Of a stretch of DNA of 56,290 nt, positions 653-31,453 are shown in pieces. The stretch lies in contig JAACJW010000004.1 of NCBI GenBank assembly GCA_021378525.1, positions 1 to 56,290 of the forward strand, given 5' to 3'. Under the pieces are notes generated by a model, which saw only the letters and a list, made by a program, of their open reading frames with translations, ran no database searches and was not told the DNA's origin. Position 1 is the stretch's first letter, and each line of letters opens with the position of its first letter. The stretch comes from Ureaplasma sp. Hg2 (GTDB lineage: Bacteria; Bacillota_I; Bacilli_A; Mycoplasmatales; Mycoplasmoidaceae). The translations under genes and the position numbers were made by a program.

Positions 653-719
653 TTCACATCTACTAAAATATTTTCACTTTATAATATACTTTTTTGTTTC
701 TTTTTTTAAGACTAAAAAA

Positions 720-739
720 TACAACCCGTGAAGGTTATA
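720..739 (-). terminator. Shared-type terminator, divergent copy, after RuvA-like gene
   Basis: Hairpin arms around GGGTTGTA followed by a T6 tract on the minus strand. It is a diverged member of the terminator family found after the other units of this array (core AACCCGTGAGG on the plus strand). Confidence 0.6.
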
Positions 740-762: not shown

Positions 763-1167
763 TTATAAATAGTAGCATGCGGTCTCATAAATAGCCCGTA
801 CTTGCGCCTTATTTAGTTTAGAGTGCTTTTCCATTGTTATAAAATCTTTACTCAATAGAAGCTCTTTAATGTTATTCTGGCTATTTTGGAATAAAGAAGC
901 TACTTTAAAAAAATCTAATGTTGTTCCAACAATGATTTTAGAAAACAGATCGTAAGCTTCATAATTTTTAAACCCGAAGATGGTCTCCACTAGATAGTGA
1001 TGATTCTTCGATAACATTGAATAGGTGTATACCCTCGTATATTTTCCCTCTTCAAATAAATCAATGCTAGATGATCCGACAATAACTTCTTTACCTGTAT
1101 AGTTGTTTTCTATCACGATTGTATCTGATCCTTTTAGAACAACTTTGCCATATAAATATATATTCAT
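763..1167 (-). CDS. RuvA-like Holliday-junction binding protein, short paralogue
   Basis: 134 residues. The N-terminus (YLYGKVVLKGSDTIVIENN) resembles the OB-fold domain of RuvA, and GFKNYEAYDLFSKII matches the conserved segment GFxxxxExxLFxxLI that ends RuvA domain I. Residues about 85-130 could form the helix-hairpin-helix region. RuvA is usually about 200 residues; the C-terminal RuvB-interacting domain is missing, so this is unlikely to be the housekeeping ruvA. RuvA binds four-way junctions and recruits RuvB for branch migration; a short form could bind junctions or interfere with RuvAB (inference). Start chosen at the ATG 7 nt after GGAG. It is expressed from shared leader copy 1. Confidence 0.6.
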   Translation of the reverse strand: MNIYLYGKVVLKGSDTIVIENNYTGKEVIVGSSSIDLFEEGKYTRVYTYSMLSKNHHYLVETIFGFKNYEAYDLFSKIIVGTTLDFFKVASLFQNSQNNIKELLLSKDFITMEKHSKLNKAQVRAIYETACYYL

Positions 1168-1266
1168 AATATATCTCCTTAAATTAAAATTGCATAAATA
1201 CAAAAATAACAAAAGGGACTTATTATGAAATAAGTTTTTTGTTAATGGTTTGAAGTATTTATACTT
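1168..1266 (-). repeat. Shared 5' leader/promoter cassette, copy 1
   Basis: About 100 bp lying directly before the start codon, nearly identical in six places. Minus-strand order: near-palindrome AAGTATAAATACTT (probable -10 region or operator), a two-part hairpin (1208-1214 pairs with 1237-1243, 1218-1224 with 1229-1235), an AT-rich stretch, then the ribosome-binding site AAGGAG. Promoter function is inferred from position. Confidence 0.75.
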
Positions 1267-1307
1267 ATTAAGTATAACTTGAAACGATTAGCTTATCAAT
1301 AAAAAAA

Positions 1308-1327
1308 CAGAACCCGTCAGGATTCCG
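1308..1327 (-). terminator. Shared-type terminator after LRR lipoprotein
   Basis: On the minus strand CGGAATCC-TGAC-GGGTTCTG followed by T7. It has compensatory changes relative to the TAGAATCC/GGGTTCTA copies, which supports a selected hairpin. Confidence 0.85.
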
Positions 1328-1356
1328 TTTAAAACGTTTTATAATAATTCTATAAA

Positions 1357-2385
1357 TTAATTAGTAGTGTCAACCAATGTAAAAGGGTCAACCAATGTAA
1401 TATGGGAGTTTGATTTTAAACTATTTACGTCGTATGCGGTGTTTCTTCCATTATATTTAACGGTAATATCGTGGGTGATGTTCGGTAAACCGGCGATTGT
1501 AGTCAACGATTGACAATAAGAAAAATCCAACATATTTAATTTACTTAAATTACTAATGTCCAGGGAGGTTAGATGGGGGGCATTGATTGACACCGATGTT
1601 AATTTAGTGTTGTGGGAAAGGTCCAGGGAGGTTGTTAGGTATTCAATACTAATAATTGACAACGATGTTAGGTTGGTGCAACCAGAAAGGTCCAGGGAGC
1701 TTGCGGAGACATTAAGGTCCAGGGAGGTTAGGTTGGTTAGAGGGGAAAGGTCCATGTGGTATCCTTTATCATGGATGTAGGAAAAGGTATCAGTAAGTGA
1801 CAATGATGTTAGGTTGGTGCAATTAGCCAAGTCTAAGCAATTTGTATAGCCACGAAAGTCCAGGGAGGTTAGGTTGGGGGTGTTCGGAAGGTCCAGGGAG
1901 GCTAGGAAGAAGGCATCGATTGTCAACGATGCTAGGTTGGGGCAGTAGGAAAGGTCCAGGGAGTCTAGGCCGTCGCCAATAATTGATAATGTTGATGTGT
2001 TTTCAGGTAACGTTCCAGTTTTTATAGATGACATTCCATTTATTTCTAAATGAACTATGTCGATACTATCGGCATTATTTAATCATGGCGGTAAAAACAT
2101 TATATTATGGTCGGGGTCAATCGCACTTGGTGGCACTATTGTTAATTCATCACAATCCATTATTTTAGTTTTTTCGCTATCAGGAATAATATATCCTCCA
2201 CCGAAGGCAGTAGTAGAATCATATACTAAAGTGGTTTTATATTTTGTTGTAGGTTTTGGTTTATCATTATTGCTATCATCACTGCTACTACATGATGTTA
2301 AAACCGCTACGGTCGGAATTGTTACTAAGCTTAATGCTGCTGTCAACATTAATAACTTACTTAGTGATTTTTTATTTAATTTCAT
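1357..2385 (-). CDS. LRR surface lipoprotein
   Basis: 342 residues. A lipoprotein signal peptide with lipobox VAVLTSC (Cys about 32) is followed by an Asp/Asn/Pro/Lys linker. From about residue 110 come roughly ten leucine-rich repeats of about 21-23 residues built on LTSLDLS and LTSLTI. The protein should be anchored by lipid on the outer face of the membrane and present an LRR solenoid. The repeats are nearly identical at DNA level (plus strand AGGTCCAGGGAGGTTAGG repeated), pointing to recent expansion or gene conversion. One TGA is Trp (FLPPW). Start at the ATG after GGAGATAAAA; an upstream in-frame ATG at 2463 would put charged residues and a second hydrophobic stretch before the signal peptide. 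Ligand unknown. Confidence 0.88.
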
Positions 2386-2422
2386 TTTTATCTCCAATTT
2401 ATCTTTATTAATTAATTTAATA

Positions 2423-2447
2423 AGTTTAATATATATATATATGTCAA
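2423..2447 (-). promoter_or_regulatory. Promoter with (AT)7 tract between -35 and -10
   Basis: On the minus strand TTGACA (2442-2447) runs into (AT)7 (2429-2442) and then TAAACT (2423-2428). The spacer is 13 bp; two more AT units would give 17. Same layout as the 6017-6047 promoter. Candidate phase-variable promoter. Confidence 0.6.
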
Positions 2448-2482
2448 TTGTTGATTTCATCACAAGGGATATAACAAAAAAA

Positions 2483-2502
2483 TAGAACCCGTGAGGATTC
2501 TA
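2483..2502 (-). terminator. Shared-type terminator
   Basis: TAGAATCC-TCAC-GGGTTCTA followed by a T-rich tract on the minus strand; ends the 2529-2801 gene. Confidence 0.85.
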
Positions 2503-2528
2503 TTTCAAACTTATTATTACTAATTTTA

Positions 2529-2801
2529 TTAATCGTACATAATCCCATGCAGATAAACTTTCTCATTTTTGATTTTTAAAATCATATAAACGTGGTTGTC
2601 TCCTGCGAGAGCGCTATAAGTTTTTCATTTGCATTCATGTAAATTGTCATAGCTACTTTCTTTATCACTTTTGATGAACATTAAGCTGCGATGAGATAAC
2701 ATATCAAATAAATCACTGTCTCTTTTATCGAGTGTCGATTTATCTCAATTTAGTTTCTTGCATAAAGTTTTTATAGTCGTTTTATTAACAATTTCATTCA
2801 T
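2529..2801 (-). CDS. Unknown small cytosolic protein
   Basis: 90 residues, absent as a single standard-code ORF because of two internal TGA (Trp) codons. It starts MNEIVNKTTIKTLCKKLN and ends HGIMYD. The first 35 residues (IKTLCKKLNWDKSTLDKRDSDLFD) look helical and may be a small DNA-binding or protein-contact region; I recognise no family. The ATG lies 7 nt after GGAG in shared leader copy 2, and the shared terminator follows, so it is a complete unit of the cassette array. Confidence 0.7.
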
Positions 2802-2902
2802 AATATATCTCCTTAAATTAAAATTGCATAAATACAAAAATATAACAAAAGGGACTTATTATGAAATAAGTTTTTTGTTAATGGTTAGAAGTATTTATAC
2901 CT
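2802..2902 (-). repeat. Shared 5' leader/promoter cassette, copy 2
   Basis: Same order of elements as copy 1. It is followed upstream (2961-2981) by a second partial copy of the segment TTGTTAATGGTTAGAAGTA and, at 2988-3014, by a hairpin of AAAAGAG/CTCTCTTTT type that may be an independent terminator. Confidence 0.75.
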
Positions 2903-3026
2903 AATAATTTTAATATATAAGTTATCCGTTTACAAGTTTTTATATTTATTATATAATCATCTTGTTAATGGTTAGAAGTATTAACTAAAAAGAGGGGGCA
3001 ACCTCTCTTTTTTAATATAAAAAAAA

Positions 3027-3046
3027 TAGAACCCGTGAGGATTCTA
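3027..3046 (-). terminator. Shared-type terminator
   Basis: TAGAATCC-TCAC-GGGTTCTA plus T-run on the minus strand, 8 nt after the stop of the zinc-ribbon gene. Confidence 0.88.
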
Positions 3047-3054
3047 TTTAAAAC

Positions 3055-3678
3055 TTAATTCTTTTGGCCATACGCATAGGCATTAGATAAACTTATTTGT
3101 TTTTCAAAAGTTTCCATATCGTTGTTATAAAACGATTCTCTAGCTTTAATCAACCAATAGTCAGCATGACATAAATTTTTTTCACATTTATAATTTTTCC
3201 ATCATTGCTTTTTTTCTTCTAACAAGTCTTCTATTTCTGGTAAGTCTCAAACATCGCCAGCGTCTAGTTCGCTAATGTTTGTTTTTTTATTAGTAATAAT
3301 ACCAATAACTTCACTAGCACCGCCACTACCGTCTATAACATATTCATAGTATTGTGCTTTGGTTAAATCATTTTCATAATTTAACTGATCATATTTTGAT
3401 GTTGATTTAACGATATCATTTTGATAGTCGTCTAGATCATTATATATTTCTAAAGTTTCTTTACTTAAAACTATATTTTGATCTTTCAATATATCCATAA
3501 ATTTTAACTCTTCATAGTTATTAACTAATAGAGTTTGTTCTTTGTGGCATACTTCCCCATCGCATTCATAACAGTAAGCATAAATGCCCCTTAAAAATAC
3601 GTTGCCATCATAATTATATAAGATAGCTTCCCCTCTATTTAAAGGCTTGTTGCATTCATTACATTCATATTTTTTCAT
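3055..3678 (-). CDS. Zinc-ribbon protein of unknown function
   Basis: 207 residues. The N-terminus carries CNECNKP (about residues 5-8) and CYECDGEVC (about 36-44), two CxxC knuckles expected to bind one zinc. The remainder is acidic and probably helical, with a Trp-rich segment (KKQWWKNYKCEKNLCHADYW) near residue 165 encoded partly by TGA. The second of two adjacent ATGs is preferred because it sits 7 nt from GGAG, as in the sister genes. No enzymatic motif is visible. Complete cassette unit with shared leader copy 3 and its own shared-type terminator. Confidence 0.75.
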
Positions 3679-3681
3679 CAT

Positions 3682-3780
3682 AAATCTCCTTGATTGTAAA
3701 ATTGCATAAATACAAAAATAACAAAAGGGACTTATTATGAAATAAGTTTTTTTGTTAATGGTTTGAAGTATTTATACTTA
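3682..3780 (-). repeat. Shared 5' leader/promoter cassette, copy 3
   Basis: Near-identical to copies 1, 2 and 4-6 from GCATAAATAC through to TTTATACTTA on the plus strand. Only the segment next to the start codon differs. Confidence 0.75.
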
Positions 3781-3838
3781 ATGATTATAACTTTTTATTA
3801 TGATCATAACAATCACTAGTATCGAAGACTATAAAAAA

Positions 3839-3858
3839 TAGAACCCGTGAGGATTCTA
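3839..3858 (-). terminator. Shared-type terminator
   Basis: Same hairpin as at 3027-3046, 16 nt after the stop codon at 3874. Confidence 0.88.
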
Positions 3859-3873
3859 TTTAAAACTTAATAA

Positions 3874-4188
3874 TTATTGATCGGTTTTTCAATTACCAAT
3901 ACTGATAATTCCCATGTCTTCCAATTTATTACGATAGGCGCGCCATTCCTCTTTTTGATTATCATAAAAGCAAGAATAGACTCCTTCTTTTTTTAGTTCG
4001 ATTGCAACATAATTGCTTAGTGTTTCATCAGCTTCGATATATTTGGTTTCAGCAGCTATGCTAAAATCATTTTCATCTTTGCTCTCAAAACATTCAACAT
4101 GGCACTCTTCCATTACAGTTACTAAGTTATCACGCTCTTCTTCTGTTAGATCAAAGAATTGTGTAACTTCTATTTCAACAATTTTCAT
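3874..4188 (-). CDS. Unknown small acidic protein
   Basis: 104 residues, strongly acidic (MKIVEIEVTQFFDLTEEERDN at the start; many Glu/Asp after). The last in-frame TGA is Trp and the true stop is a TAA at 3874. Acidity and size resemble DNA-mimic or anti-defence proteins carried by phages and plasmids, but that is only a size-and-charge argument; no family is recognised. ATG preceded by AAGGAG. Complete unit of the cassette array, shared leader copy 4. Confidence 0.7.
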
Positions 4189-4289
4189 ATTTTTCTCCTT
4201 AGTTATGAATTGCATAAATACAAAAAATAACAAAAGGGACTTGTTATGAAATAAGTTTTTTGTTAATGGTTAGAAGTATTTATACCTAA
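4189..4289 (-). repeat. Shared 5' leader/promoter cassette, copy 4
   Basis: Same element order; one substitution in the hairpin loop side (CTTGTTATG instead of CTTATTATG). Confidence 0.75.
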
Positions 4290-4327
4290 TGATTATAACT
4301 TTAAATTAATAGGTTATCAATAAAAAA

Positions 4328-4347
4328 TAGAACCCGTGAGGATTCTA
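4328..4347 (-). terminator. Shared-type terminator after LRR fragment
   Basis: TAGAATCC-TCAC-GGGTTCTA plus T-run on the minus strand; serves the 4383-5979 transcript. Confidence 0.85.
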
Positions 4348-4382
4348 TTGAAACGTTTTTATAATAATCTTATATGTGTCAA

Positions 4383-5130
4383 CTAATGTAAATTTGTATC
4401 AACTAATGTAATGTGAGAGTTATATTTTAGACTATTTATATCATACGCAGTATGATATTGCGCTGTAGAGTATTTAACGGTAATATCGTGGGTGATGTTT
4501 GGCAACCCCGTGATTGTGGTCAAACTATTACAGTCAGAAATATCCAACATATTTAATTTAGATAGATTCGAAAGGTCCAGGGAGGTTAGGGCGCTGTCAT
4601 TAATTGTCAGCGATGTTAGGTTGGTTAAATCGGAAAGGTCCAGGAAATTTTGGGCTAATATAGTTGAATTTGCGCTATTAATTGTCAGCGATGTTAGGTT
4701 GGTTAGATTAGAAAGGTCCAGGGAGGTTAGGCAGTAGCTAAAAATTGACAACGATGTTAGATTGGTATTGTGGGAAAAATACAAGTGGGTTAGGTGGAAG
4801 GCATCGATTGTCAACGATGTTAATTTGGTTAAGTTGGAAAAGTCCAGGGAGGTTAGGCCGGGGGCATTTATTGACAATGTCGATATATTTTCAGGCAATA
4901 TTCCGGTTTTTATAGATGATATCAAACTAACATTCAAATGAACTATATCAATATTACTAGCATCCTTTAATCAAGATGGCAAAAACATTATATCGTGGTT
5001 GGGATCAATTGAACTTGGTGCTACTATCGTTAATTCACCACAAGCCATTATTTTAGTTTTTTCGCTATCAGGAATAATATATCCGCCACCGAAGGCAATA
5101 GTAGAATCATATACCAAGGTAGTTTCTTTT
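4383..5130 (-). pseudogene. 3' fragment of an LRR lipoprotein gene
   Basis: Open from YDSTIAFGGGYIIPDSEKTK to the C-terminus and closely related to residues about 60-342 of the LRR lipoprotein at 1357-2385, with the LTSLDLSNLTNLTSL repeats. It has no signal peptide: going upstream the frame meets a TAA in an A8 run immediately after the end of the 5137-5979 gene. It looks like a donor or leftover of recombination between LRR genes and may serve as a silent sequence reservoir (inference). Internal TTG codons could in principle start a cytosolic product, but no ribosome-binding site is evident. Confidence 0.8.
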
Positions 5131-5136
5131 TTTTAT

Positions 5137-5979
5137 TTAATTGGAAATTAACTTTATATTTGGGTTTGTTTTACTACATGCTATTAAATCAGCAATCATG
5201 GTAGGTGAATTATAACCATTATACGTAACATTAATAGTATGTTTTATATCTTTTAAACCATCTATATTGTTTAAATTTTTAGAATCTGATATGTTTAAAT
5301 CTGTAATATTAGTGGCATTAGATATGTCTAATGATTTTAAATTTATATCATTTATTACAGCAATTTTTTGATAATCTGAATTACTTTTAAACTCAGTGAT
5401 TGGAGTATCATCTATTTTGATATTTTTAACACCTGGATTGATAGTTAAATTAGTTAAACTATCATATGCATATTGATTCTCAATATTTAAAGTTTCCAAT
5501 GAGATATCCGATGATGGATTTGAATTTTTAACTGTAATTGATTTTATACTATCTGGAAAAGGAGTATAAGTACTATTAGACCCATCATTCATGACAATTT
5601 CTTTAATATTGTTAAAATCTAATTCAATATGTTCAATAGTGTGATGATCACCCATTACGCCTGGTAAGCTTACATATAATAAACCTTTAGGTGGGATGTT
5701 TGTTGGGTCTAACTTTATAGTTAAGTTTTTACAAGCATTTATAGCAGATATATCTTGGCTATCTACAACGTAAGCACCTGTGTGAGTGACTTTGTTAATA
5801 TCTCAAATTTCAAGATCTGGTTGATATTTTAATTTAATTGTTAAGTTATCACTATGTGGTGTATCATTATCACTTCCGCTACTACAAGATGTCAAAATTG
5901 CGGCTGTTGGAACTACGATGATTCCTAGTGCGCCTGTTATTAGCAAACATTTTGCTATTCATTTTTTATTTAATTTCAT
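5137..5979 (-). CDS. LRR-like surface lipoprotein
   Basis: 280 residues. Lipobox AILTSC follows a hydrophobic signal (ITGALGIIVVPTAAI). The first half is an Ig-like or unclassified beta-rich segment; the second half has short irregular repeats (LKSLDISNATNITDLNISDSKNLNNIDGL cut into LRR-like units). It shares its first ~15 residues and promoter type with the 1357-2385 gene but the body is different, so recombination at the 5' end is likely. It ends just before the LRR fragment and both would be on one transcript. Start at ATG after GGAGATAAAG. Confidence 0.85.
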
Positions 5980-6016
5980 CTTTATCTCCAATTTGTTTTT
6001 ATTAATTAATTTAATA

Positions 6017-6047
6017 ATCATAATATATATATATATATATATGTCAA
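6017..6047 (-). promoter_or_regulatory. Promoter with (AT)10 tract between -35 and -10
   Basis: Minus strand: TTGACA (6042-6047), (AT)10 (6023-6042), TATGAT (6017-6022). The spacer is 19 bp; one fewer AT unit would give 17. Flanking sequence (CAATTGACA and TTATTAAATTAATTAAT) matches the 2423-2447 promoter. Confidence 0.65.
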
Positions 6048-6077
6048 TTGTCGATTTCATCAGGGGGCATAAAAAAA

Positions 6078-6097
6078 TAGAACCCGTGAGGATTCTA
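6078..6097 (-). terminator. Shared-type terminator
   Basis: TAGAATCC-TCAC-GGGTTCTA plus T7 on the minus strand, after the 6124-6531 gene. Confidence 0.88.
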
Positions 6098-6123
6098 TTT
6101 AAAAACTTAATAGTTTAAAATTA

Positions 6124-6531
6124 TTATCTGTTCGCTCAATAACCACTTACATAAATGGTTCTCCGCATTCTTTTAATTTTTGCGGCCTCTTCGATTGCGT
6201 TATTATAATCGTTTGTTAACCTTTCGATCACTTTAGCTTTATCTTTTAAACAACATATTATATTGGAATGACATGTTACAGCTTTAATAAGTCGATCGTG
6301 TTCTACGTCTGTTAACTCTTTGTCTATCGCCCAGCCATTAATAAACCCATCAGGTTCCATGTCGAACGATTTAAAATCTAGTTCCTTTAGTAGTCTTATA
6401 TCTTCCATTAAACGCTTTACAGGTTGCATTGCTTTCATATATAAATACATTTTTAATTGTGATTGGTTCATTTGTTGAAGTCTTTCGTATTCACTACTTT
6501 CATCATCAATATAAATGATATTATTTGCCAT
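6124..6531 (-). CDS. Unknown helical protein
   Basis: 135 residues, mainly charged and helix-forming with a probable coiled coil near the C-terminus (KAKVIERLTNDYNNAIEEAAKIKRMRR). Two adjacent cysteines sit in the middle (IICCLKDK). The last TGA is Trp (SGYW) and TAA at 6124 ends the gene. ATG follows AGGAGGCCACACA. No family recognised. Complete cassette unit (leader copy 5). Confidence 0.7.
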
Positions 6532-6632
6532 TGTGTGGCCTCCTTAAATAAAATTGTATAAATACAAAAATAACAAAAGAGACCTATTATGAAATAAGTT
6601 TTTTTGTTAATGGTTTGAAGTATTTATACTTA
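6532..6632 (-). repeat. Shared 5' leader/promoter cassette, copy 5
   Basis: Same element order. As at copy 2, a partial second copy (TTGTTAATGGTTTGAAGTA) and a hairpin of AAAGAGG/CCTCTTT type follow upstream at 6692-6743. Confidence 0.75.
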
Positions 6633-6775
6633 ATTATTATAATATAACGAATATCTATTTACAAGTTTTTATATATCATATATAATTAGCTTGTTAATGG
6701 TTTGAAGTATTAACTAAAAAAGAGGGGGCAACTCCTCTTTTTTTATTACTAATCTATGAATATTTGATAAAAAAA

Positions 6776-6795
6776 CAGAACCCGTAAGGGGTCTG
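6776..6795 (-). terminator. Shared-type terminator
   Basis: Minus strand CAGACCCC-TTAC-GGGTTCTG plus T7; changed at several paired positions while still able to pair. Confidence 0.8.
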
Positions 6796-6803
6796 TTTAA
6801 AAC

Positions 6804-7001
6804 TTAATTTTCATAAGAATAATCATTCAGTGGATCATCTTCTATTTTTTCAAGGATAGAAGCTAATCTTAAATTTTGACTTTTAAGCTGAGCGATTTCA
6901 TTTCTTTGCGCTGCGATTGTAAAATCCTTAGGGCAAAGTCCTGCTTGTAAATTATTGTAATATTCTTGACACGCCTTGCATTGTTCATAATTATTATTCA
7001 T
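6804..7001 (-). CDS. Small Cys/coiled-coil protein
   Basis: 65 residues. CKACQEYYNN near the N-terminus and one further Cys (GLCPKD) precede a leucine-zipper-like helix (RNEIAQLKSQNLRLASILEKIEDD). It could dimerise and bind metal, but no family is recognised. ATG after AAGGAG. Expressed from leader copy 6, the last unit of the array before the XRE regulator. Confidence 0.65.
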   Translation of the reverse strand: MNNNYEQCKACQEYYNNLQAGLCPKDFTIAAQRNEIAQLKSQNLRLASILEKIEDDPLNDYSYEN

Positions 7002-7102
7002 ATTTTTCTCCTTCGTTATGAAATTGCATAAATACAAAAAATAACAAAAGGGACTTATTATCAAATAAGTTTTTTTGTTAATGGTTTGAAGTATTTATAC
7101 CT
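7002..7102 (-). repeat. Shared 5' leader/promoter cassette, copy 6
   Basis: Same element order as the other five copies; single substitution in the hairpin loop (ATCAAATAAG). Confidence 0.75.
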
Positions 7103-7158
7103 AATGATTATAATCTATAATTTATTGCTTATCAACGCTTATCTTATATCGATAATAT

Positions 7159-7446
7159 TTAATTAATATAATCAGATTGTTGTTCTAGTCATTTAATAAC
7201 TTTTGCCAAGCTAGGTTGAAACAAAAGCTCAACATCACAGCCAAATACTTCAGCAATAGCTATTGCCGTACTAAGGCGAGGTTTGAATGTGTCAACTTCT
7301 AATCTGCTAATGGTTTGGTGGGTTACATGTAATTTTTCTGCTAATTCTTTTTGAGATAGGTTTAAATGAGCTCTAATAAATTTTAAATTTGTTCTAAAAT
7401 AACAAAATTGGTTATCAGTTATTTTATTTTTTTCAGTTATTTTCAT
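7159..7446 (-). CDS. XRE-family HTH regulator
   Basis: 95 residues. A Cro/C1-type helix-turn-helix spans about residues 17-70: FIRAHLNLSQKELAEKLHVTHQTISRLEVD is the classic SQxxLAxxxxVxxxxISxxE pattern. One TGA near the end is Trp and the stop is at 7159. It lies at the head of the cassette array and next to the replication module, so it may control either the six shared leaders (each has the near-palindrome AAGTATAAATACTT) or the element itself. This is positional inference. Confidence 0.9.
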
Positions 7447-7802
7447 AACTTAATTATATCTATTTTATAAATTTAAAAAAGTTATAAATTATACTATTAT
7501 AATTCTTATATATAAACTAAATATCTAATAACATTGAAAATTACACGTTATATAATTAAATATAAATATAGTAGCAGTTTGCATATTGATTACATGTAGT
7601 GTATAATTTTATTAATTACTATCCGACACAAGTAAAAACTATTAATTGTCCGTTAGTAATTAACAAATAAAAGAAAAACCAATCGCCTGCAAGCGATTGG
7701 TTGGACACAAGTAAAAACTATTAATTGATATTATTATATATTGGTTATTTTCTTTTGTCAATTCTTTTGTTTTGTATATGAATTGCAAAGGACAATTTTT
7801 TG
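7447..7802. repeat. Non-coding region with 24-bp direct repeats flanking a hairpin
   Basis: No gene seen. Two perfect 24-bp direct repeats at 7625-7648 and 7704-7727 (core ACACAAGTAAAAACTATT) flank a perfect 10-bp stem (AACCAATCGC 7677-7686 with GCGATTGGTT 7693-7702, 6-nt loop). Position just before the Rep-like gene suggests an operator, origin or attachment role. On the minus strand the hairpin is followed by T5, so a terminator is also possible. Confidence 0.6.
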
Positions 7803-8510
7803 ATGTATAAAAGTTTACTAAAAAGAAATAATCTGTATCATCTAGAAAATACTAGCTTTAAAAACAAGCCAGAAGCTTTTGACTCTTTCTTAGAAAAAGT
7901 ATCGAAGTATCAGAATGGTTTTAAAGATAAATTTGATATAGATATTTATAATTGCAAACGTCCAACCAAATTTAAACAATTTATAACGTGGGCCAAATCT
8001 TTTCAAGGCAGCGTTAACACATGAACATATATTCAAATGGGGCAACTATTTAATGTACACCCTGAAACAATAGGTCGTTGAATTAAGAAAATTCCATGAT
8101 TATCTTATCAGTGAAACCCTAAAAGTAACTTGCGTAAACGTAAACACCATACTCATTTTTTGAAAATGATTTTAGTTACAGATAAAAAAAAGTTAAAGAT
8201 AGAACAAGATATTTTAAATGCAGCTAGAGAAGAAAATGAAAAGACACAAAATCTTTTAAATGGATCTAGAAAAAAGAAAAAATTGAAACCTATTGAAACC
8301 TCTGAAAATTATATAGAACGAAATAATCGACTTGAGGACGAACGAGCTGCTACAACAATAAAACAAGAAGAAATAAAATATCAAATAGAACTCGCTAAAT
8401 TAGAAAAGAAAAACAAAGGCGTAGCTATTGATTGAAAAGACGACTTAGAAGAAGAACAAGAAACTAAACCGCCGCCTAATCGCAATTTCCGACCTATCAA
8501 CGTTAAATAA
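7803..8510 (+). CDS. Rep-like / HTH DNA-binding protein
   Basis: 235 residues with five TGA-encoded Trp. Residues about 75-105 (TYIQMGQLFNVHPETIGRWIKK) look like a helix-turn-helix. The second half is highly charged, with a long helix (RAATTIKQEEIKYQIELAKLEKKNK). This resembles plasmid and phage replication-initiation or replisome-organiser proteins in layout; I cannot assign a family. It begins right after the repeat/hairpin region and is followed by a terminator and by four iteron-like repeats, which supports a replication or copy-control role. ATG 10 nt after AAAGGA; a TTG at 7800 with 7-nt spacing is an alternative start. Confidence 0.55.
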
Positions 8511-14047: not shown

Positions 14048-15319
14048 TTAACGCTCCATTTCCTTTTCTTCGATATTCTTTTCCCATCATAATTCCATCG
14101 TCATCATGCGAGACAAACCTCGCGCTAGCGATGTTTCAAATAATTGATTAGTTTTTATAATTCTATTAAAATTTAACCGATCATAAACTTTATTATTTTT
14201 ATAATAGTTTTTTTGATGATAAGACATTTTTAAATTCTTATTTTTATCATTTTCTTTAATTGTTTTTAAAACAGCGTTTCCTAAATGACCTTTTAATTCA
14301 TTTTGGATGTTATTTTTTTCACTAGCTAATTTTTTGTTTAAATCACTATACGTACTAGTACTAGTGTTTCAATTTTGCTTTAGTCTATTTTCATAATTAG
14401 AATATGTGTCATTTAATTTATCATTAAAGCTAGTAAATTTATCTTTTAAATTTTGATTGCTGTCAATTATTTTTTCAACTAATTGATCTATTCCAAATAA
14501 TAATTTTTCAGAATGAATATTATTATATTGAAGACGACCTTTTGTACCTTTTGTTTTTTTAATATCTTTACTTAAATGATCTAATTGTCTTCCTATCTCT
14601 CGATTATTTCTAATAACATCCTTAAACAATGTTTTAAGTTCAATTTTTTCTTTATTCATTTCTACAAACAAACTTTTGTTGTTTTCAAATAACATAACGT
14701 TTTGTCTTGATACTGCGATATAAGTATCTTTTTTTAATTTTCCTCGAACCCTAATATCCTCGTCCTTAACAAACGAAGGTTGATAAACTCTAAAATGGAG
14801 ATGGTGTTTCGATGTGTTGGTATGGAATGCAGCCTGATAAGTAAAATTACGTGGATTCAAGTTATTGTGGCTACAAATAGCTTTAAATGAATTATTAGCT
14901 ATTAAACGTTTCATGTTAGGTAGATCATAATTAATTGTTGATTCTTCATCGAAGCTTACTACTATTGTTCAAATATTCGATTTAGGATGGACTTCAGGAA
15001 GTGAATCATTACTAATGTTATTCCCGACAGCATTAAATAATTCGAATTCATTATTAGGTATTTCTCCTAAAGAACCCTCCCGATTATACATATAACCGAC
15101 CAACGACCCTTCCTTAGCTTGATCTAGTTTTTCTAATTCTTGTTGCAATATTTTTCTTGTCTTGTTATCTAGCGTAGTTTTGCTCAATTCTTCTTCAATA
15201 TGCTTTCTTCTCAAATAATTTAAGTAGTTTCCTTTATTAGTGCTATTACTAGCTAAAAACCCATAATCCTTTGAAGCAGGAGTATAAAATTTTATATTAG
15301 TAATCATTTTAACTGGCAT
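14048..15319 (-). CDS. Conjugative relaxase (MOBP-like)
   Basis: 423 residues. Around 165-176 the segment FHTNTSKHHLHFRVYQ supplies the histidine cluster expected of the relaxase metal site, matching the hTxTxHxHxHxx form of MOBP relaxases. The protein would nick oriT and lead the strand into the recipient. The C-terminal half is a long coiled-coil region. ATG starts 2 nt after the TraG stop and the next gene follows after 1 nt, so nicking and coupling proteins are co-translated. Catalytic Tyr not assigned with certainty (IKFYTPASKDYGF near the N-terminus has candidates). Several TGA are Trp. Confidence 0.75.
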
Positions 15320-15321
15320 GA

Positions 15322-17658
15322 TTAACGCCCGTCCATAGCTTTAAAATCATTTTTATTATCTTTTGATTTTTTATTAGCTTCTTTTTGTTTTGCTTGATTT
15401 TTTACTTTATCTTCCAACTTTTTTTTATCGTCTAGTTTCTTCTTTTTATTATCTTCTTGTTTTTTATCTGCTTTCTTTTCCTTTACGGTCTTAAAATTAA
15501 TTAGATCTAAAAAATATGAAGTGGTCCAATCATTAGTAATATTTTGATTAATTATTTTAGGTATACACCCTTTAATAACATCAACGGTTTGAAATAAATT
15601 TATTACTTCAATGTTTTTAATTGGCTTTTTACGTTGGATTCAAAGGTATAAATTATTTTCTTTGTTTGTTCTTAAATCTTCAGGCTTAATCACTAATTTT
15701 TCATTTTCTTGATCCTGATAAGATTTATTGAGCGATTCCTTATCAATTCCAATTGAGGTGGTTGAATTACTTTTAAAATAATCTATCTTGCCACTAGTAT
15801 CAGATAATCTTTTGTTGGTGTTATAGTCATCAGACAATAAATATAAAGTAGCCATTACATTGGCTTTTAAAATTTCAGCCGTATCACGCCCGTATTTTAA
15901 ATTAATTTGACTATCAGCTTGGATTGCCATAATTGTTCAAATGTTTCTAGAACGCCCTGCCGTTAATAAAGAGTTCATAATATCTATTTTAGGAAGGTTA
16001 CCAAATTCTTCTAAAATGAATAATATAGGACGTGGTAATTTTTGATCTAGATAATTATTACATTTATCTAAAAGAGTGGCATACATGATTTCCACTAGTA
16101 TCGAAGCAAATACATGTTTAGTTGTGTCTACTTCAGGAATAATAATGTAAATAATAGTTGGTCTAATCTCGATCGTGTCAAAGCTACTATCTGAAATCAG
16201 ACTATTTCAAATAATACCTATATTTTTGAATGGCTTAAAAGCATTACCGGCCATACCTTTAATTGTTCCTAAAGCTTTTGGCGACTCATTATAAACACTC
16301 ACCATCTGATCAGAAGAATAGTCTATAATTTTTTTATTAATTAATTCTTGAATTTTTACTTCAATTTCTTCGATTGCTTTATTGTCTTTTTTATCATCAT
16401 CATTTAATTCATTTAGTTTTTTTAATAATTTATTATGATTGATTGTTCAATTTTTTAATTGATTTTTACGATCATCATAAAATTCAATAACAGATTCAGC
16501 TGTTGTTAAATCAATATTCTTGGCTATCGTTGGTAAATTAAAATAAGTATTATTAATTTCACCATTTTCAATAAAATCAAGTTCAATTTTTTCTAATGCC
16601 CGCAACAGTCAACCTAAAACTAATTTAATAGTTGATGGTTCTCAATAACCATCAGCTTGCTTATCGTTGTCTCTAGATTGACAAAATTTAGTAGCTATCT
16701 TATCACACTCATCAAAAGCTTTAGATTTTTCCTGTTCGCTTAAAAGAATCGATTGTTGGCGTGCGCTGTCTTTTGAAATAAAAGCAAAGTTTCCAATGGT
16801 GAAATAAGGATTCTCTGTATCGGCCGAACTTGGTTTATTATCGATCCAAATATAATTATCGATTTTACTCGTATGGATTCTTCTTTTAATTCTATTATTT
16901 TTTAAGAGCAAATAATTTTTAAACTTTGAAAAAGCAAAATCTAGTAAATTAATACTATTGGAATTAAAACTATCATAATAATTATATACTAAAACATCAT
17001 ATCCGTTCTTCTTTGCGAATGCAGAAGTTTTATCAAAAATTTCACCTTTTGGATCGGTTATTATCATCGAAGGTTTAATTGTAGATTTAACATTTAATTC
17101 GATTGTGGGCAAAAGAATGGTCGCGGTTTTACCTGACCCCGATGTTCCATAAAGAATACAATTACTATCCGCTAGTAACCTAGCGGTATAATTCTTGTTT
17201 ATCTTATGTTTTCTAAAATCGCAGGTTAAAGTTTTTTGCGTTGTAACATCTGCATACTTTTCAAACGAATTTTTTTTGACACATTTACGTTGTTGAGAAA
17301 CAGTTAAAGCTTTTGATTCAATAACAAACCCATAAGCATTATGTTTTTGATTTGCAACGATATTTGATTTACTATAATTATCAAAATTTTTGTATGATCA
17401 AAAACCTTTGATGGTAGAACTAGAATGTTTCTTTTTAGAACCGCGATCAAATTTATAAAACTTGTAAAAATAAAATCAAATGCAACCAGCGATAACAAGG
17501 AGATCGAATAGCCACAAATATCAGCTACTAAATCCAGCTACGAACAACGATCAATTTATAGTCTGATTGAAAAGGAAATTATAAATTATATCTATAACTA
17601 TAAAAACAATAAAAAACAAAAGGATAGCAATAGCGATATCAATAATAATTTTTTTCAC
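15322..17658 (-). CDS. VirD4/TraG-type coupling protein
   Basis: 778 residues. Two N-terminal membrane helices (about 4-30 and 38-65), Walker A YGTSGSGKTATILLPT at about 170-178, and a Walker B region ILFILEEFGNLPKI near 545 identify a type IV coupling protein, which delivers the relaxase-DNA complex to the secretion channel. The C-terminus is a Lys/Asp/Glu-rich tail. GTG start 10 nt after GAAAGGA; no ATG in the preceding in-frame stretch. More than ten TGA are Trp. First gene of the minus-strand transfer operon, divergent from the channel genes. Confidence 0.93.
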
Positions 17659-17721
17659 AATAAGGAAGTCCTTTCAAAAGGGACGTGCAGCACAGATGCA
17701 CGACAAAAAAAGATTTTTTGT

Positions 17722-17808
17722 GCCCTTTTGTATCGACTGACAAAAGGGCTCGGCCTGCGGCCTCCTTCGATTTTTAGCAAAGGTTAATAATATTATACCT
17801 AAAAATCG
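17722..17808. other. Palindrome-rich segment, oriT candidate
   Basis: Lies in the divergent 356-bp gap between relaxase/coupling and channel operons. GCCCTTTTGT (17722-17731) pairs with ACAAAAGGGC (17740-17749); GGCCTGCGGCC follows; CGATTTTTAG (17768-17777) pairs with CTAAAAATCG (17799-17808), enclosing a smaller palindrome TAATAATATTA. The most GC-rich patch of the element core. Inverted repeats next to the relaxase operon are typical of oriT. The first hairpin could instead belong to the coupling-protein leader. Confidence 0.45.
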
Positions 17809-17849
17809 TGTTTTTGCGACACAAAAACTAAGCAAGATAAGAGAAAACT

Positions 17850-17952
17850 ATGTCTTTTAATGCTTTTACTTTATATATAAAGGGTAAAAAGACATTAAAT
17901 AAACATTAAGACATATTTTCTTATTGTAAAAAGACATATTATTTAATATAAT
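17850..17952 (+). promoter_or_regulatory. Promoter of channel operon with AAGACAT operator repeats
   Basis: TTGTAA (17924-17929), 17-bp spacer, TATAAT (17947-17952), 62 nt before the ATG at 18015. AAGACAT occurs at 17889, 17908 and 17931, and inverted (ATGTCTT) at 17850. The last copy lies in the promoter spacer, so a repressor bound there would block transcription. Binding protein unknown. Confidence 0.6.
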
Positions 17953-18014
17953 AAAATAGTAATTATTCTTTTTACAAGAGAATAAAAATTGACATTTTTT
18001 TAGGAGGTATTTAT

Positions 18015-18359
18015 ATGGATACTACATCATGAGTCTGAGGGGCAATTATAAATTTAATGGGGGAGGATCAAGGAAGTAAGCTAATAACAGGACTTAATGT
18101 AATATTGGGCATTATCATCGGCGTAGCTGCGGCTGGGTTTATCATTCAATTATTAATGTGATTTGTCAAAAAACAACACATCGAGGAAGAAGAAAATCCT
18201 AAGCACAATAAAAAGATGATGAGAAATTTAGGTGGATTTTTAGGAGTGTGTTCAACGTTTTTTATCGTAACAATGATCTTTAATTTTGCAGGAACATATG
18301 TTGTTCCTGATGATGTAAAAACCGAATCTATTATAATGATTATTCAAACGTTATGATAG
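18015..18359 (+). CDS. Pilin-like small membrane protein (Mbov_0395-like)
   Basis: 114 residues, with TGA codons as Trp from residue 6 on. Two membrane helices (about 27-52 and 80-100) separated by a charged loop KKQHIEEEENPKHNKK, the TrbC/VirB2-like layout. Strong AGGAGGT 6 nt before ATG. The stop overlaps the next start by 7 nt. Position before the polytopic protein and VirB4 matches the Mycoplasma ICE gene order 0395-0396-0397-0398. Likely forms or supports the transfer channel. Confidence 0.7.
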
Positions 18360-20221
18360 ATTTTGCAAACGCATTATTAACTCCGCTCTATACGGTTTTT
18401 TATGAAATATTTATTCAAGGCGGATTAATATTTTTAGATTTCTTATATCAAATATTTACCTTTTTAACAGGTAGCACTTTAACCGATAGTGTCTTCGGCG
18501 TAGCTAAAATGGATAATGGTAACATTAGTTTTATTTTTGACTGATCATCTGATATAGCAAAATATTTTTATATACCAGTATTGGTGCTAGCATTAATATC
18601 TTTAATATTTTTTATTAGTGCAGCATTTTTATCAGATATTTATGGGAATAGCAAACAAAGAAATAGTGCAGATCAATTAGTATCTGGTTGAGGCAAAATG
18701 AAATGAGTTGTTTACTTTTGTGCTAGCATTATTTTTGTGCCAGTATTTTTCTTAATATTAAACATGCTAGTATCGATGTTTGCTTTAATTATTCAACCAG
18801 GAAGTAGTAATATATTAACACCTGAAAATATTAAATATTATAAAACTGAATTGATTCCAAATTTGGATTTGTTAAAGGGAATAGGGGCAAATATTAATTT
18901 AAATACTGATACAGGCTCTGAAAGTTTACGAGACGCACTCGATACTATAGACTCCTCCATTAACAGTTTTATGAAATCTGCAAGCGCCGTTGGGAATAGC
19001 GATATTGCAGATATATGTAATAATATTGAGTCTCAAATTAATAATATAAAATATATGCTCGATGGAAATAATAGTGATAGTGTTATTGTTGCTATAAATA
19101 ATATTGAAGCAATCATTAACAATTTATCTCCGGATAAAGTCATTGATACGGACTCTGCGGAAATTATTAAAAATAATTTAGATATATTCAATAATTTCAA
19201 TTTAAGCTTTATAAACTTAAACGATAATTTAAAAGACTTAGTTAATCATCAATCCACTATTATTGGTTATGACCCTTCTTTTAAAGGTCAATTTGTATTA
19301 ATTGATTCTTTTATTAAGAGTGCTGGGTCTATAGATAAAACAGAAATAGGTTATTTCGTTTCTACTTGCCAAAATCAATCATTAATTTATAATTTATCAA
19401 ATAGTAACGGCGAAAATTTATCATTATATAATCTATCAAACATATTAAGCAACCATAAAGATTTTAGTTATGTTTTATCTATCTATCGTATTATTGCAAA
19501 CGATCCTAATGCTACCAACTGGAAGGACATCCCCGTTTCAGAGCTTAAAGCCTCTAATTTATTAATTGGGCTTGTATTTTTAGTTATGGCAATAATATTA
19601 ATGTTGTTCTTTTGTTTGTTTGTTACAAAAAGAGTGTTTTATCTAGCTATTTATTTCATAGTGTCTGTAATTATCTTTGCTTCGGCGATTCAAGATGATG
19701 GATTAAGAGTTAGCCTGTGATTTAAAGTGGTAATAGGTAAATTTTTATCAATCTTAATAATAACATTAGGATTTAACTTAGGATTAACGCTAGCTAGCGG
19801 TTTTAATTCCATTATTAATAATATTCCAGACCATGACCATTTATGAAAATCAATTACTAGTTGTATCGTTGATTTCTCTGGTTTATTAGCGGCCTATGGA
19901 TCTACCATCTCGCTAGGGAAAATGATAGGTGATGATTCCTCGATGGCTGAAGGCTTTGCAGATATGGCCATTATACGAACAGGCTTCTCATTGGGCGTAA
20001 AACCCGCAATGGGCCTAACTGTGGCCAGCGGACAATTAGCTACGGGTAATGTGGCTGGAGCTACTGGTACTTTAGGAAAAACAATAGGCTTAAACGTAGG
20101 TGGTGGCCATGGCAGTAAAAAAGGCGGCCATGGTGGTCAAAATGTTAATCATGCTAATCCGCCTAAAGCAGCAAACAACGTCAGTAAAGCTGATGTTGGG
20201 AATGCAATTAGATCTAATTAA
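18353..20221 (+). CDS. VirB6/TrbL-like polytopic channel protein (Mbov_0396-like)
   Basis: 622 residues. N-terminal membrane helices (residues about 12-45, 70-95, 120-150), a large outside loop (about 155-395), then further helices (about 400-500) and a Gly/Ala-rich tail with GGGHGSKKGGHGG. A central loop between helix clusters and a Gly-rich C-terminus fit VirB6/TrbL proteins, which form the inner-membrane pore. ATG overlaps the previous stop; VirB4 follows after 11 nt. Several TGA are Trp. Confidence 0.8.
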
Positions 20222-20232
20222 TAGGAGACAAT

Positions 20233-22899
20233 ATGGAAAATTTAATCACAAATGCGCCACCGCTTCGAAAGAAATATTTATTTATATATAAAAAATTTAT
20301 TATTTATCCAGGCGATGTTGCAGCAACAATAATAGCATTAATCATAATGTTGCCTATATTGTTTATGGTCCCTATGTTATGGTGGGCAAGAATTATTATT
20401 GTGGTTGTTGGGTTGGTAATATGAGCGTTGTTAATTTGAAGGAACGATGACGAATTATTTAGAGACCTACTTTGAGATAGTATTAAATTTCTTTTTATAA
20501 AAAAATCATTTATTAAAGGAGAGTCAAAAATTTTCTTTCAACCTAAAAAAATCGAAGACAATCATGTTTCTCAAAAAGATAAACAAGTAACAACTATTTA
20601 TAGAATTTTAGGCAACGATATTTCATTGATTAGTGCAGGAGAATTAGAAAAGAGAATAAGAAATTTATCTCATTTTTATCAACAAGCTATAAATGTAAAA
20701 ATTATAGCTATTGATTCAACATTTAATTTTAAAGAAGATATCAATTATTGAAAAACCAAGGATTGAAAAAAACCAATAAATAAATTGTCATTATATGATA
20801 ATGTCGAACAAATAATGAATATCGATAATAACTCAGAAGTTCTAGAAAAACAATATTATTTAATTTTCAATAGCTATAATAAAAATTCTAATGTAACAGC
20901 TTATAATAAAATTTCAATATATTTAAATGCTATCGGGGTTGTCAGTCAAAAAGCAACGCTTCGTGAAATCAATATGGTCAATGAAAAGTTTTGAAATTGT
21001 AATCTAGACGATACAATTAAAAAATGAAAAGTTAATAATTTAAACTTTACTAATCGTTTTTATAAAATTAACAAAAAATTTTATTGTACGATAGGTGTTA
21101 AAGCTATGCCATTAGTATCACATAATTTATGACTAACTTCATTATATAAAATTGAGAATGCAACCATTATCACTAATATTAGAAATATTGACTCTAAAAC
21201 ATCAGAAAAATATTTAAAGAAATCATATATTTATTCACGCGATAAATATGCCAACATTCGCGCTAATGATCTTATCGGTAATATAAATGCTAATGATTTT
21301 GTTGTAGCGGTAGAACAGACGGCTTCTTGAGTTGCTAATGGGGTGCATGCTTTGAAGGAGACTGAAACCTTTATTTTAATCGAAGCAAAAAAATATAAAG
21401 CATTATTAAAACGGAAAAATGAAATTATAACAGAACTAAAATTATCTGGTTTTAAATGTACGGCCAATGCTTCTAAACAACTTGATTCATTCAAATCGAT
21501 TATTCCTAATAGTGATATTAAGTGTCCGCATTTAAACATCAATATTTTATCTAATTCATTAGGAATGGGATATCCATTCACTTCTATCGACTTTGTTGAT
21601 GAAAAGGGATTCTATTTAGGTTTATCTTCATCAGGGACTCCCGTAAGCGTAAACCTCCACACCAAAAACATGCAACGAAATTCATTTTCTAGCATTTTTT
21701 TAGGAAAAAACGGGGGTGGTAAAACTTATGCTGTCTCTAAAATTATTAAAAATAAAATTATTGATGGTAATAATAAAATTTTTATCATCGATCCAAAGCG
21801 TGATTATTATAATCTAGTTACAAATTTCGGTGGCGAATACATTGATATGGCGGGTTTAAGCCCTAAGTCGAAACGAATTAATCCGTTCCAAGTGTTTATG
21901 AATGAAACCTCTGATGAAGGGACACATCCTTTGATTCGACACTATCGATTCCTCGAAGAGTTTTTTACTATTGTTTTTCCAAAATTAGCTTCTAGTTCGA
22001 CCGACCTATCTTTATTGAATAAGTACATTAAAATAGTTTATCAAAAAAAGAAGATTAGAAACGATACAAACATTTCAAAATTACAGCCTAAGGATTGACC
22101 AATTTGAGAGGATTTATACTTAGAAATTTCTAAAGCTATAAAAAAATGTAAAATTGATGATTTTGATCTAGAACATTTATATACATTAAAAGGCTATTTG
22201 CAAAACTTTTCAAAGGACGGAAACTTTGCTTCGATATGAAATGGGCCAACTAACATCGATTTAGCTAAAAGTGATTTAATATGTTTTGATATTCAAAAAT
22301 TGATATCATCAGGCGGCGATCGAATAGCTAATGCGCAATTATATTTAATGTTAACATTTATGTATACTGCTGTGATTGAGAATAAAGACTACAACGACCG
22401 GTTAGATCCTAACCTAGAAAGTAAATGAATTGATATTTTTGTTGACGAAGGACACGTTTTAACAACTGCTAAAAATAAACAGCCATTATACTTCTTATTC
22501 ACGATGTTTAAAACCATCCGTGGCTATCATGGGGGTGTCCATTTTGTCAATCAAAACATTCAAGGGTTAATGGGTACCGATGAAACAAAAGAGCAAACTA
22601 CAGCGATGATTGATAATGCTCAATATATTTTTATATTTCCGTTGAATCCCAACGATATAAATAATTTAAATACATTATTTGCTTCGCTTGGCGGCATAAC
22701 TGAGAATGAAAAAGAATTTTTATCGATGGCACAAGTTGGCCACTGTATCTTTGCTCCATTTCCAACTTCACGTTTTAATATGCGAATAAATGTTTCTCCT
22801 TTTGAAGAGGAATTGTTTAATAAAAAATTATCTTTGGATATAATTAATAAATATATCAATGAATATGAAGGAGGAACTTATGAGCAATCCGAAGGATAA
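20233..22899 (+). CDS. VirB4/TraE-type conjugation ATPase (Mbov_0397-like)
   Basis: 888 residues. Two N-terminal membrane helices (about 28-65), Walker A FLGKNGGGKTYAV near 491-503, Walker B IDIFVDEGH near 733-741, and downstream motifs GVHFVNQNIQGL (arginine/Q-loop region) as in VirB4 and TraC/TraE ATPases that power channel assembly and transfer. A dozen TGA are Trp. RBS GGAG 8 nt before ATG. The end overlaps the next gene's start by 20 nt. Confidence 0.92.
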
Positions 22900-30421: not shown

Positions 30422-31453
30422 GTGAAAACAATTAAAGGCATTGACTTATTCTGCGGAGTAGGCGGACTTACTAACGGCTTACAGAGTGCCGGAATTAAAA
30501 TTAAAGTAGGTTTTGATATTGATGAAACTTGTCGAAAAGGATTTGAGATAAACAACAAAGCGAAATTTATATCTAAGGATATTAGATCGATTCAAAAAGA
30601 TGATATTTTGCCTTTTCTCAAAGGAGCGGATTACACTCTAATAGCTGGGTGCGCACCTTGTCAAGCATATTCTAATTATCAAAAAAACAAATCATTTGAT
30701 GAAATAACAAAACATAAAAAATATGGTTTAATAAATGAATTTATTAGAATTATAGAAGATGTAAAACCAGACTTTGTCACAATGGAAAATGTACCTCAAT
30801 TAAGAAAAGACCCACTATTTATAAAATTTATAGAATCCATAGAGAGAAATTACAAGTATTATAAATGTGAAGTCATAAATATTGCTAATTACGGAGCCGC
30901 TCAAAATAGAAAAAGATTAATTTTTATTGCATCAAATATCGGTCCTTTAGAAATACCGAAAGGTTTTGAAAATAAGAAATCAATATTTGAAGTCATAGGT
31001 CATTTGCCCGAATTAAAAATGGGAGAAGTTGATAAATTTGATCCATTACACAAATGCTCTAAATTAAATGAAACTAATATGGAACGAATAAAAAATTCTA
31101 AACCAGGGGGCACGTGAAGAGATTGGCCGAAAAATTTATTACCAGATTGTTATCTTAGAGAAAGTGGTAAAACTTTTAGTTCAGTTTACGGTAGAGTGTC
31201 GCCAAATAAGCCATCAGGAACTATAACAACACAATTCAATAGATACGGTAGTGGCCGTTTTGGTCATTATAAACAAAATAGAGCCTTCTCATTGAGAGAA
31301 GGCGCGTTGCTTCAAACTTTTCCTAGTGATTATGATTTTTGTATCACAGATAACGTTCCTATGACTGCTATAGCTAGACAAATAGGGAATGCGGTTCCAC
31401 CTATTATAGGTAAAGTTATTGGAGAAATTTTTATTAATTCAATAAAAAAATAA
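30422..31453 (+). CDS. DNA cytosine-5 methyltransferase (with MORC-like ATPase)
   Basis: 343 residues. C5 motifs in order: I GIDLFCGVGGLTNG (6-19), IV GCAPCQAYS with catalytic Cys80, VI MENVPQ (about 120), VIII QNRKRLIFIA (about 160), IX in KPSGTITT, X QIGNAVPP (about 325). The variable target-recognition region lies between VIII and IX. GTG start at 30422 after GGGGTG. Modifies cytosine in an unknown site and should protect host DNA from the neighbouring ATPase-linked restriction activity. Confidence 0.92.

Follow-up and report, generated by a model that had tools for sequence, protein, structure and literature searches.

The nearest described arrangements to the locus reported here are the SAS/ESAS sequences and the SPBRE element. 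In cluster K mycobacteriophages, start-associated sequences (SAS) of 13 bp lie beside the start codon, their extended form (ESAS) consists of 17-bp imperfect repeats with a variable spacer, an inverted repeat is often present, and a role in expression or translation start has been proposed (PMC3203893). In prophage SPbeta, the MrpR repressor has a 15-bp DNA site, SPBRE, to which its binding has been proven (PMC10516654). Here we describe an array of six single-gene units with a common leader (g9, g8, g5, g4, g3 and g1, all on the minus strand) in the first 56,290 nucleotides of contig JAACJW010000004.1 of Ureaplasma sp. Hg2 (assembly GCA_021378525.1; positions 1-56290, hereafter the window). 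We favour, with moderate confidence, the view that the six are separate accessory genes under joint regulation, situated at one end of a mycoplasma-type conjugative element, with a common 5' stem-loop and a common terminator bracketing each mRNA. Our sample is a single draft genome (1.18 Mb, 79% complete, with TGA coding for tryptophan) and its six near-identical leaders.

Followed along the minus strand from 7446 to 763, the array comprises an Xre regulator, g9, g8, g7, g6, g5, g4, g3, g2 and g1:

7159-7446, minus strand: Xre/HTH_3 regulator heading the array, without the common leader (PF01381, E 7.3e-16)
6804-7001, minus strand: g9, orphan of 65 amino acids, a short Cys-containing plus coil protein
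6124-6531, minus strand: g8, orphan of 135 amino acids
5137-5981, minus strand: g7, lipoprotein
4383-5117, minus strand: g6, truncated lipoprotein, leucine-rich repeat (LRR) part without signal peptide
3874-4188, minus strand: g5, acidic orphan of 104 amino acids, isoelectric point 4.3
3055-3678, minus strand: g4, orphan of 207 amino acids with a CxxC-rich N-terminus
2529-2801, minus strand: g3, orphan of 90 amino acids
1357-2386, minus strand: g2, LRR lipoprotein with a different leader
763-1167, minus strand: g1, RuvA N-domain-like protein of 134 amino acids (PF01330, E 1.1e-5)

The coding sequences (CDSs) of the six units are unrelated to each other, as an initial annotation of this DNA had stated: the best E value of blastp among them was 0.046. 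The six units listed in that annotation were recovered, but it had overlooked the LRR lipoprotein genes g2 and g7 and the truncated g6. Its 'RuvA-like' label for g1 holds for the N-terminal domain and not for the whole family, TIGR00084 scoring far under its cut-off.

Each unit consists, in order, of a sigma-70-type promoter, a 78-nt 5' untranslated region (UTR), an individual ribosome-binding site (RBS), the CDS and the common terminator. In every leader a -35 box (TTGATA, TTGTAA or TTGTTA) is followed after 17 bases by a TATAAT-like -10 box, and exactly 6 bases beyond the latter, in 6 of 6 leaders, stands GTATAAATAC, the first arm of the outer stem of a hairpin. The leaders of g3 and g8 belong to a longer sub-type, which has an extra terminator and in which a 19-nt core is present a second time:

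7107-7135, minus strand: promoter of g9, TTGATA-17-TATAAT
7022-7100, minus strand: 5'UTR hairpin of g9 (R1 model, 99.9 bits)
6724-6736, no strand assigned: extra terminator hairpin of the long-type leader (g8)
6691-6709, minus strand: second 19-nt UTR core copy, upstream of the g8 promoter
6636-6664, minus strand: promoter of g8 (long-type leader), TTGTAA-17-TATAAT
6552-6629, minus strand: 5'UTR hairpin of g8 (R1, 98.8 bits)
4292-4320, minus strand: promoter of g5, TTGATA-17-TATAAT
4208-4285, minus strand: 5'UTR hairpin of g5 (R1, 93.6 bits)
3784-3812, minus strand: promoter of g4, TTGTTA-17-TATAAT
3700-3777, minus strand: 5'UTR hairpin of g4 (R1, 103.8 bits)
2991-3006, no strand assigned: extra terminator hairpin of the long-type leader (g3)
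2962-2980, minus strand: second 19-nt UTR core copy, upstream of the g3 promoter
2907-2935, minus strand: promoter of g3 (long-type leader), TTGTAA-17-TAAAAT
2822-2900, minus strand: 5'UTR hairpin of g3 (R1, 92.2 bits)
1271-1299, minus strand: promoter of g1, TTGATA-17-TATACT
1188-1264, minus strand: 5'UTR hairpin of g1 (R1, 99.2 bits)

The near-identity of the six leaders, already noted in the initial annotation, is real: their 19-nt core, TACTTC(A/T)AACCATTAACAA, occurs 8 times in the window, where 0.13 occurrences would be expected. Nor is the likeness limited to a promoter core, an outcome which that annotation had named as fatal to its own proposal. On the promoter side, identity is 29% 5' of the -35 box, 81% in the -35 box, 47% in the spacer and 89% in the -10 box; on the transcribed side, it is 95% (minimum 92%) over the UTR hairpin and 50% in the last stretch up to the ATG. 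That a promoter was recently duplicated, without any further role, would agree with the confinement of all copies to 6 kb of one contig, but the flanks have diverged to 29-50% identity and the UTR has not, and we consider this explanation very improbable. The conservation of the UTR amid diverged neighbouring positions indicates instead a regulatory function. A promoter alone does not account for 78 conserved transcribed bases, and the simplest reading of the sequence would be a functional RNA leader.

The UTR folds as a 25-bp three-tier hairpin with nested stems of 10, 8 and 7 pairs. The consensus has a folding energy of -17.6 kcal/mol, compared with a mean of -4.2 (sd 2.0) for dinucleotide shuffles, none of which (0/2000) was as stable, and the hairpin is the predicted fold in five of the six leaders and in all six UTRs taken in isolation. 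Standard pairs occupy 99.3% of the pair cells, as against 31-48% in slid controls. Pairing survives two of the stem changes (U-G/U-A and U-A/U-G) and is broken by a third, in g5, and the A-run and T-run indels lie inside or beside internal loops. No Rfam family matched the leader at its gathering score. In bacteria, transcription typically starts some 7 bases past the -10 box, which would place the mRNA 5' end at the foot of the outer stem, on or beside its first base, near GUAUAAAUAC. On the plus strand, the centres of the UTRs (1211-1250 and equivalents) read AAAAGGGACTTATTATGAAATAAGTTTTTTG or nearly so, an RBS-like stretch followed by ATG AAA TAA and a weak terminator.

The conserved stretch could also act as DNA. 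In this case the Xre protein (7446-7159) or another protein of the element would bind the palindrome ACTTATT-N4-AATAAGT, or the 19-nt core, and repress the six units through a set of operators resembling SPBRE. The Xre regulator indeed stands at the head of the array, copies of the palindrome with 0-1 mismatch are confined within the window to the six leaders, and the core occurs twice more, upstream of promoters. However, the predicted start precedes the palindrome by some 30 nt, and what is conserved is the full hairpin rather than a single site. Moreover, five copies have a U-G wobble in their outer stem that breaks the DNA symmetry while keeping RNA pairing, and run-length changes shift the spacing of the arms. 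The operator idea lost further weight because the surroundings of the xre promoter, where one would expect autoregulation to act, lack the palindrome; overall, we judge it unlikely. At 7625-7730, between the divergent xre and open reading frame (ORF) 7725-8510, a direct repeat, GACACAAGTAAAAACTATTAATTG, flanks a hairpin and represents a candidate xre operator.

At the RNA level, the UTR might alternatively work as a translational switch, with its central segment UUUCAUAAUAAGUCCCUUUU pairing either within the hairpin, which leaves the RBS free, or with the unit's own RBS and start codon, which hides it. Against a background of 27 further gene starts in the window, the RBS regions of the six units pair more strongly with the UTR segment (p 0.008 in a one-sided Mann-Whitney test; p 0.024 when g1 and g3 are counted once), although purine-rich RBSs pair with any segment resembling an anti-Shine-Dalgarno sequence. 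The two folds are within about 1-3.5 kcal/mol of each other in g1, g3 and g4, but the RBS-hidden form is 7-8 kcal/mol worse in g8 and g9, and in g9 the pairing is weakened by a sequence change. Two changes in the g8 UTR bring its pairing with the odd RBS of that gene to -12.8 kcal/mol, from -6.7 without them; however, this variant also pairs better with most other RBSs. As the energies of g8 and g9 do not favour the switch, we rated it lower and regard it as quite doubtful. A more far-reaching reading takes the leader for an element-encoded cis-regulatory RNA of a new class, in which a 5' stem-loop common to orphan accessory genes toggles between hairpin and RBS-hiding fold and would bring any newly recombined gene at once under the control of the element, but this is a long shot.

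The near-identical hairpin terminators of the initial annotation are as real as the leaders. Terminator-like hairpins number 14 against 3.0 expected, and a single family of CACGGGTTCTATTTTT-type terminators closes eight array units, including the lipoprotein units g2 and g6:

6779-6793, minus strand: terminator after g9
6075-6100, minus strand: terminator after g8
4326-4349, minus strand: terminator after the truncated lipoprotein g6
3836-3861, minus strand: terminator after g5
3024-3049, minus strand: terminator after g4
2479-2506, minus strand: terminator after g3
1305-1330, minus strand: terminator after the lipoprotein g2
708-738, minus strand: terminator after g1

These unit ends are 11-bp rho-independent terminators with T-runs, and their stems have been kept by compensatory changes (covariation score 0.210, reached by 0/500 shuffles). 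Beyond this contig, the same genome contains two related copies, both on contig C25; its other matches are weak, with 2 mismatches, and comparable to the reversed-pattern control (5). The complete lipoprotein genes g2 and g7 have a common leader of their own, which occurs genome-wide at two positions only:

5978-6062, minus strand: lipoprotein-type leader of g7
2384-2475, minus strand: lipoprotein-type leader of g2

Positions 4383-5981 look like a recombination scar, g6 having lost its signal peptide and beginning directly behind g7; the LRR part of g6 is about 74% identical to g2 at the DNA level.

The initial annotation interpreted the array as a set of interchangeable cassettes. On such a reading, leader and terminator would serve mainly as homologous flanks for the exchange of CDSs and owe their similarity to recent recombination. 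Its separate expression units with common flanks are confirmed, but the leader is more than a homologous flank, the hairpin having been kept while its neighbours diverged. Recent copying alone would have left the spacer and the RBS region as similar as the UTR, and they are less so. Recombination of CDSs through the flanks receives indirect support. The leaders are mosaic: upstream of the UTR, sister relations link g1 with g5 (0.80) and g3 with g8 (0.78), whereas downstream they link g1 with g3 (1.00) and g5 with g9 (0.91), a conflict expected if the UTR acted as a crossover point. In addition, g1 and g3 have in common 47 identical bases reaching up to and beyond the start codon, and equivalent places of a pattern that recurs in the array (long-leader gene, lipoprotein, short-leader gene) hold non-homologous genes. 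We did not take the four-gamete patterns seen in homopolymer lengths as proof that recombination had occurred.

A decayed second array, of different content, is found on contig C25 of the same genome. It consists of a 3' remnant of g4, a membrane protein gene, a leader piece and a copy of g1; g3 and the lipoprotein gene g2 are missing, and the membrane protein gene stands in their stead. The leader piece corresponds to the 5' part of a long-type leader whose promoter and UTR have been deleted. The g1 copy is 94% identical to g1 but frameshifted and decayed, with a lost start codon, a premature stop and an 11-base deletion. The remaining differences are mostly silent (judged by eye on the alignment), which suggests that g1 was probably under selection as a protein before the copy decayed. 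A further copy of g1, on contig C1, is 32% identical. As the C25 array is a relic, its differences show turnover and not cassette exchange as such: they could stem from plain deletion and insertion, and the contig itself houses further members of the membrane protein gene's family. Leader and cargo searches of related genomes revealed no actual exchange in a second strain. To cassette exchange as the main explanation of the leaders we give less than even chances. Contig C25 (L065:12000-16800) further holds a small membrane-protein gene family in several diverged copies, and close to an L11-like ribosomal protein gene it has two remnants of the 3' end of g1.

Co-regulation by a common RNA leader appears to us the better account of the six units. 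Each mRNA would be structured at both ends, by the 5'-terminal stem-loop and by the terminator hairpin. Stem-loops in 5'UTRs are established as stabilizing bacterial mRNAs of other genes (reviewed in PMC7509114), and by analogy the most likely role of the UTR in the six units would be to protect the mRNA or to be recognized by a common factor. The stem-loop may shield the 5' end from 5'-dependent ribonucleases and thereby set the lifetime of the mRNA. Alternatively, it could be the site for one common regulator. The presumed outcome would be the expression of unrelated genes at matched levels. As the longest near-identical stretch of each unit, the UTR is also a natural crossover point, through which leaders and CDSs may have been reshuffled inside the array.

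The presumed carrier is indicated by a block of genes on the same contig:

14048-22899, no strand assigned: conjugation genes, encoding a MobP-like relaxase, VirD4/TraG, an Mbov_0396-type membrane protein and VirB4

The VirD4/TraG gene (15322-17835) matches PF02534, the Mbov_0396-family protein (18353-20221) scores above its cut-off, and the best match of VirB4 is the Mbov_0397 family (VirB4_plasma, E 3e-142), both families being those of integrative and conjugative elements (ICEs). Relatives of VirB4 occur in 23 of 95 family genomes, its own genome counted. On the basis of these conjugation genes, the array is probably part of a mycoplasma-type ICE. The contig ends do not overlap, hence there is no sign of a circle. 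An IS256-family transposase was the only transposase- or recombinase-type match identified in the scanned ORFs, and the ends of the element were not located. A related ICE (L122:15400-19400, in contig G043:C4) has, beside its VirB4 gene, small ORFs with a common C-terminal tail (...KRNNLK) and a repeated terminator, and its 255-base leader, present twice at 96% identity, is unrelated in sequence to the six-unit leader; this one case hints that repeated flanks could be a recurrent feature of small ICE genes.

Elsewhere in the window, a dense run of restriction-modification genes lies between two IS256-type transposase gene copies, the second of them broken, and a prokaryotic viperin, a radical S-adenosylmethionine antiviral enzyme, is encoded in this bacterium in which TGA specifies tryptophan:

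28180-49382, no strand assigned: restriction-modification run
28180-30366 and 40949-42307, no strand assigned: restriction enzymes
30422-31453, 39635-40831 and 47342-48313, no strand assigned: cytosine methyltransferases (PADLOC models)
43298-45163, no strand assigned: Orf5/HEC-06/SspE relative
55178-56041, minus strand: prokaryotic viperin (pVip, E 2.6e-59)

Several observations weigh against co-regulation by a structured leader on a conjugative element. The six UTR copies, at 95% identity, are too similar to display covariation on both sides of a stem, and none was seen; the RNA structure therefore rests on stability and position and not on compensatory change. A palindrome acting at the DNA level would resemble the UTR hairpin. 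In g1, the alternative RBS-hiding fold is about equally stable, and the lipoprotein genes stand inside the array without the six-unit leader. Concerning the carrier, the VirB4_plasma score is under the curated cut-off of the family, and we infer that array and conjugation genes form one element from their common contig.

The leader search of other genomes that the initial annotation had proposed yielded nothing beyond its own genome, neither in the family genomes nor in 320 genomes of the order. Outside its own genome, blastn over the 95 family genomes gave weak partial matches only. A covariance model run on the 320 order genomes retrieved the six matches in the window and three elsewhere with E about 0.007-0.009, the number expected by chance. 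The exact core has six scattered single matches in viral and genome contigs, five of the six in Kurthia, Lysinibacillus and Pelagibacteraceae, which we treated as chance. The DNA of the array matched no phage or plasmid. Likewise, five cargo proteins have no relatives among 395 genomes of the class, g4 and g8 have none in viral contigs, and g8 has none in phages. AlphaFold without alignment gave a useless model of g4 (mean predicted local distance difference test score 35) and a poor one of g5 (54), a consequence of the lack of relatives.

Mycoplasmas have few regulators and few known regulatory RNAs. If one promoter type, a 5' hairpin and a terminator indeed accompany each cargo gene, this would be a simple means for the joint control of many unrelated genes. 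The leader would moreover be a handle for finding more cargo genes; of those in this array, only g1 resembles a known family, and weakly so.

How does this locus compare with known systems? As in integron cassettes and phage morons, unrelated small genes form separate units. In contrast to integrons, each gene has its own promoter, all with one common UTR. The integron analogy of the initial annotation found no support: ORF, family and repeat searches of the array turned up neither an integrase nor an attC-like site, and its units end in rho-independent terminators; nor was an integrase found among the 10 array proteins or the scanned neighbours, in a scan that covered only part of the contig ORFs, with the contig ending near the array. 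An own promoter and terminator for every unit is moron-like; no close relative for comparison carries the element. The phage carrier implied by the moron analogy does not fit, as the contig has conjugation genes and the array DNA is without a phage match.

Mycoplasma ICEs (MICE; reviewed in PMC7466169) likewise have TraG/TraE-type genes and Mbov_0396/0397-type families, together with species-confined hypothetical genes and eroded copies elsewhere in the genome. The contig carries both TraG/VirD4 and TraE/VirB4 of mycoplasma ICE families, whereas the DDE recombinase CDS22 and the terminal inverted repeats of MICE were not identified on it. A common structured leader before cargo genes is not mentioned in the passages of that review consulted. 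As with SPBRE, the array repeats a single element across several promoter regions, and most of the genes concerned have no known function; here, conservation covers the whole transcribed hairpin. With SAS/ESAS, the array has in common a repeated leader upstream of many genes of different families in one mobile element. A SAS-type motif adjoining the start codon is absent from the six leaders, the ATG-proximal stretch being their variable part. Instead, the array combines a 78-nt hairpin at the predicted 5' end, a promoter and a common terminator for each unit, and a conjugative element as the probable carrier.

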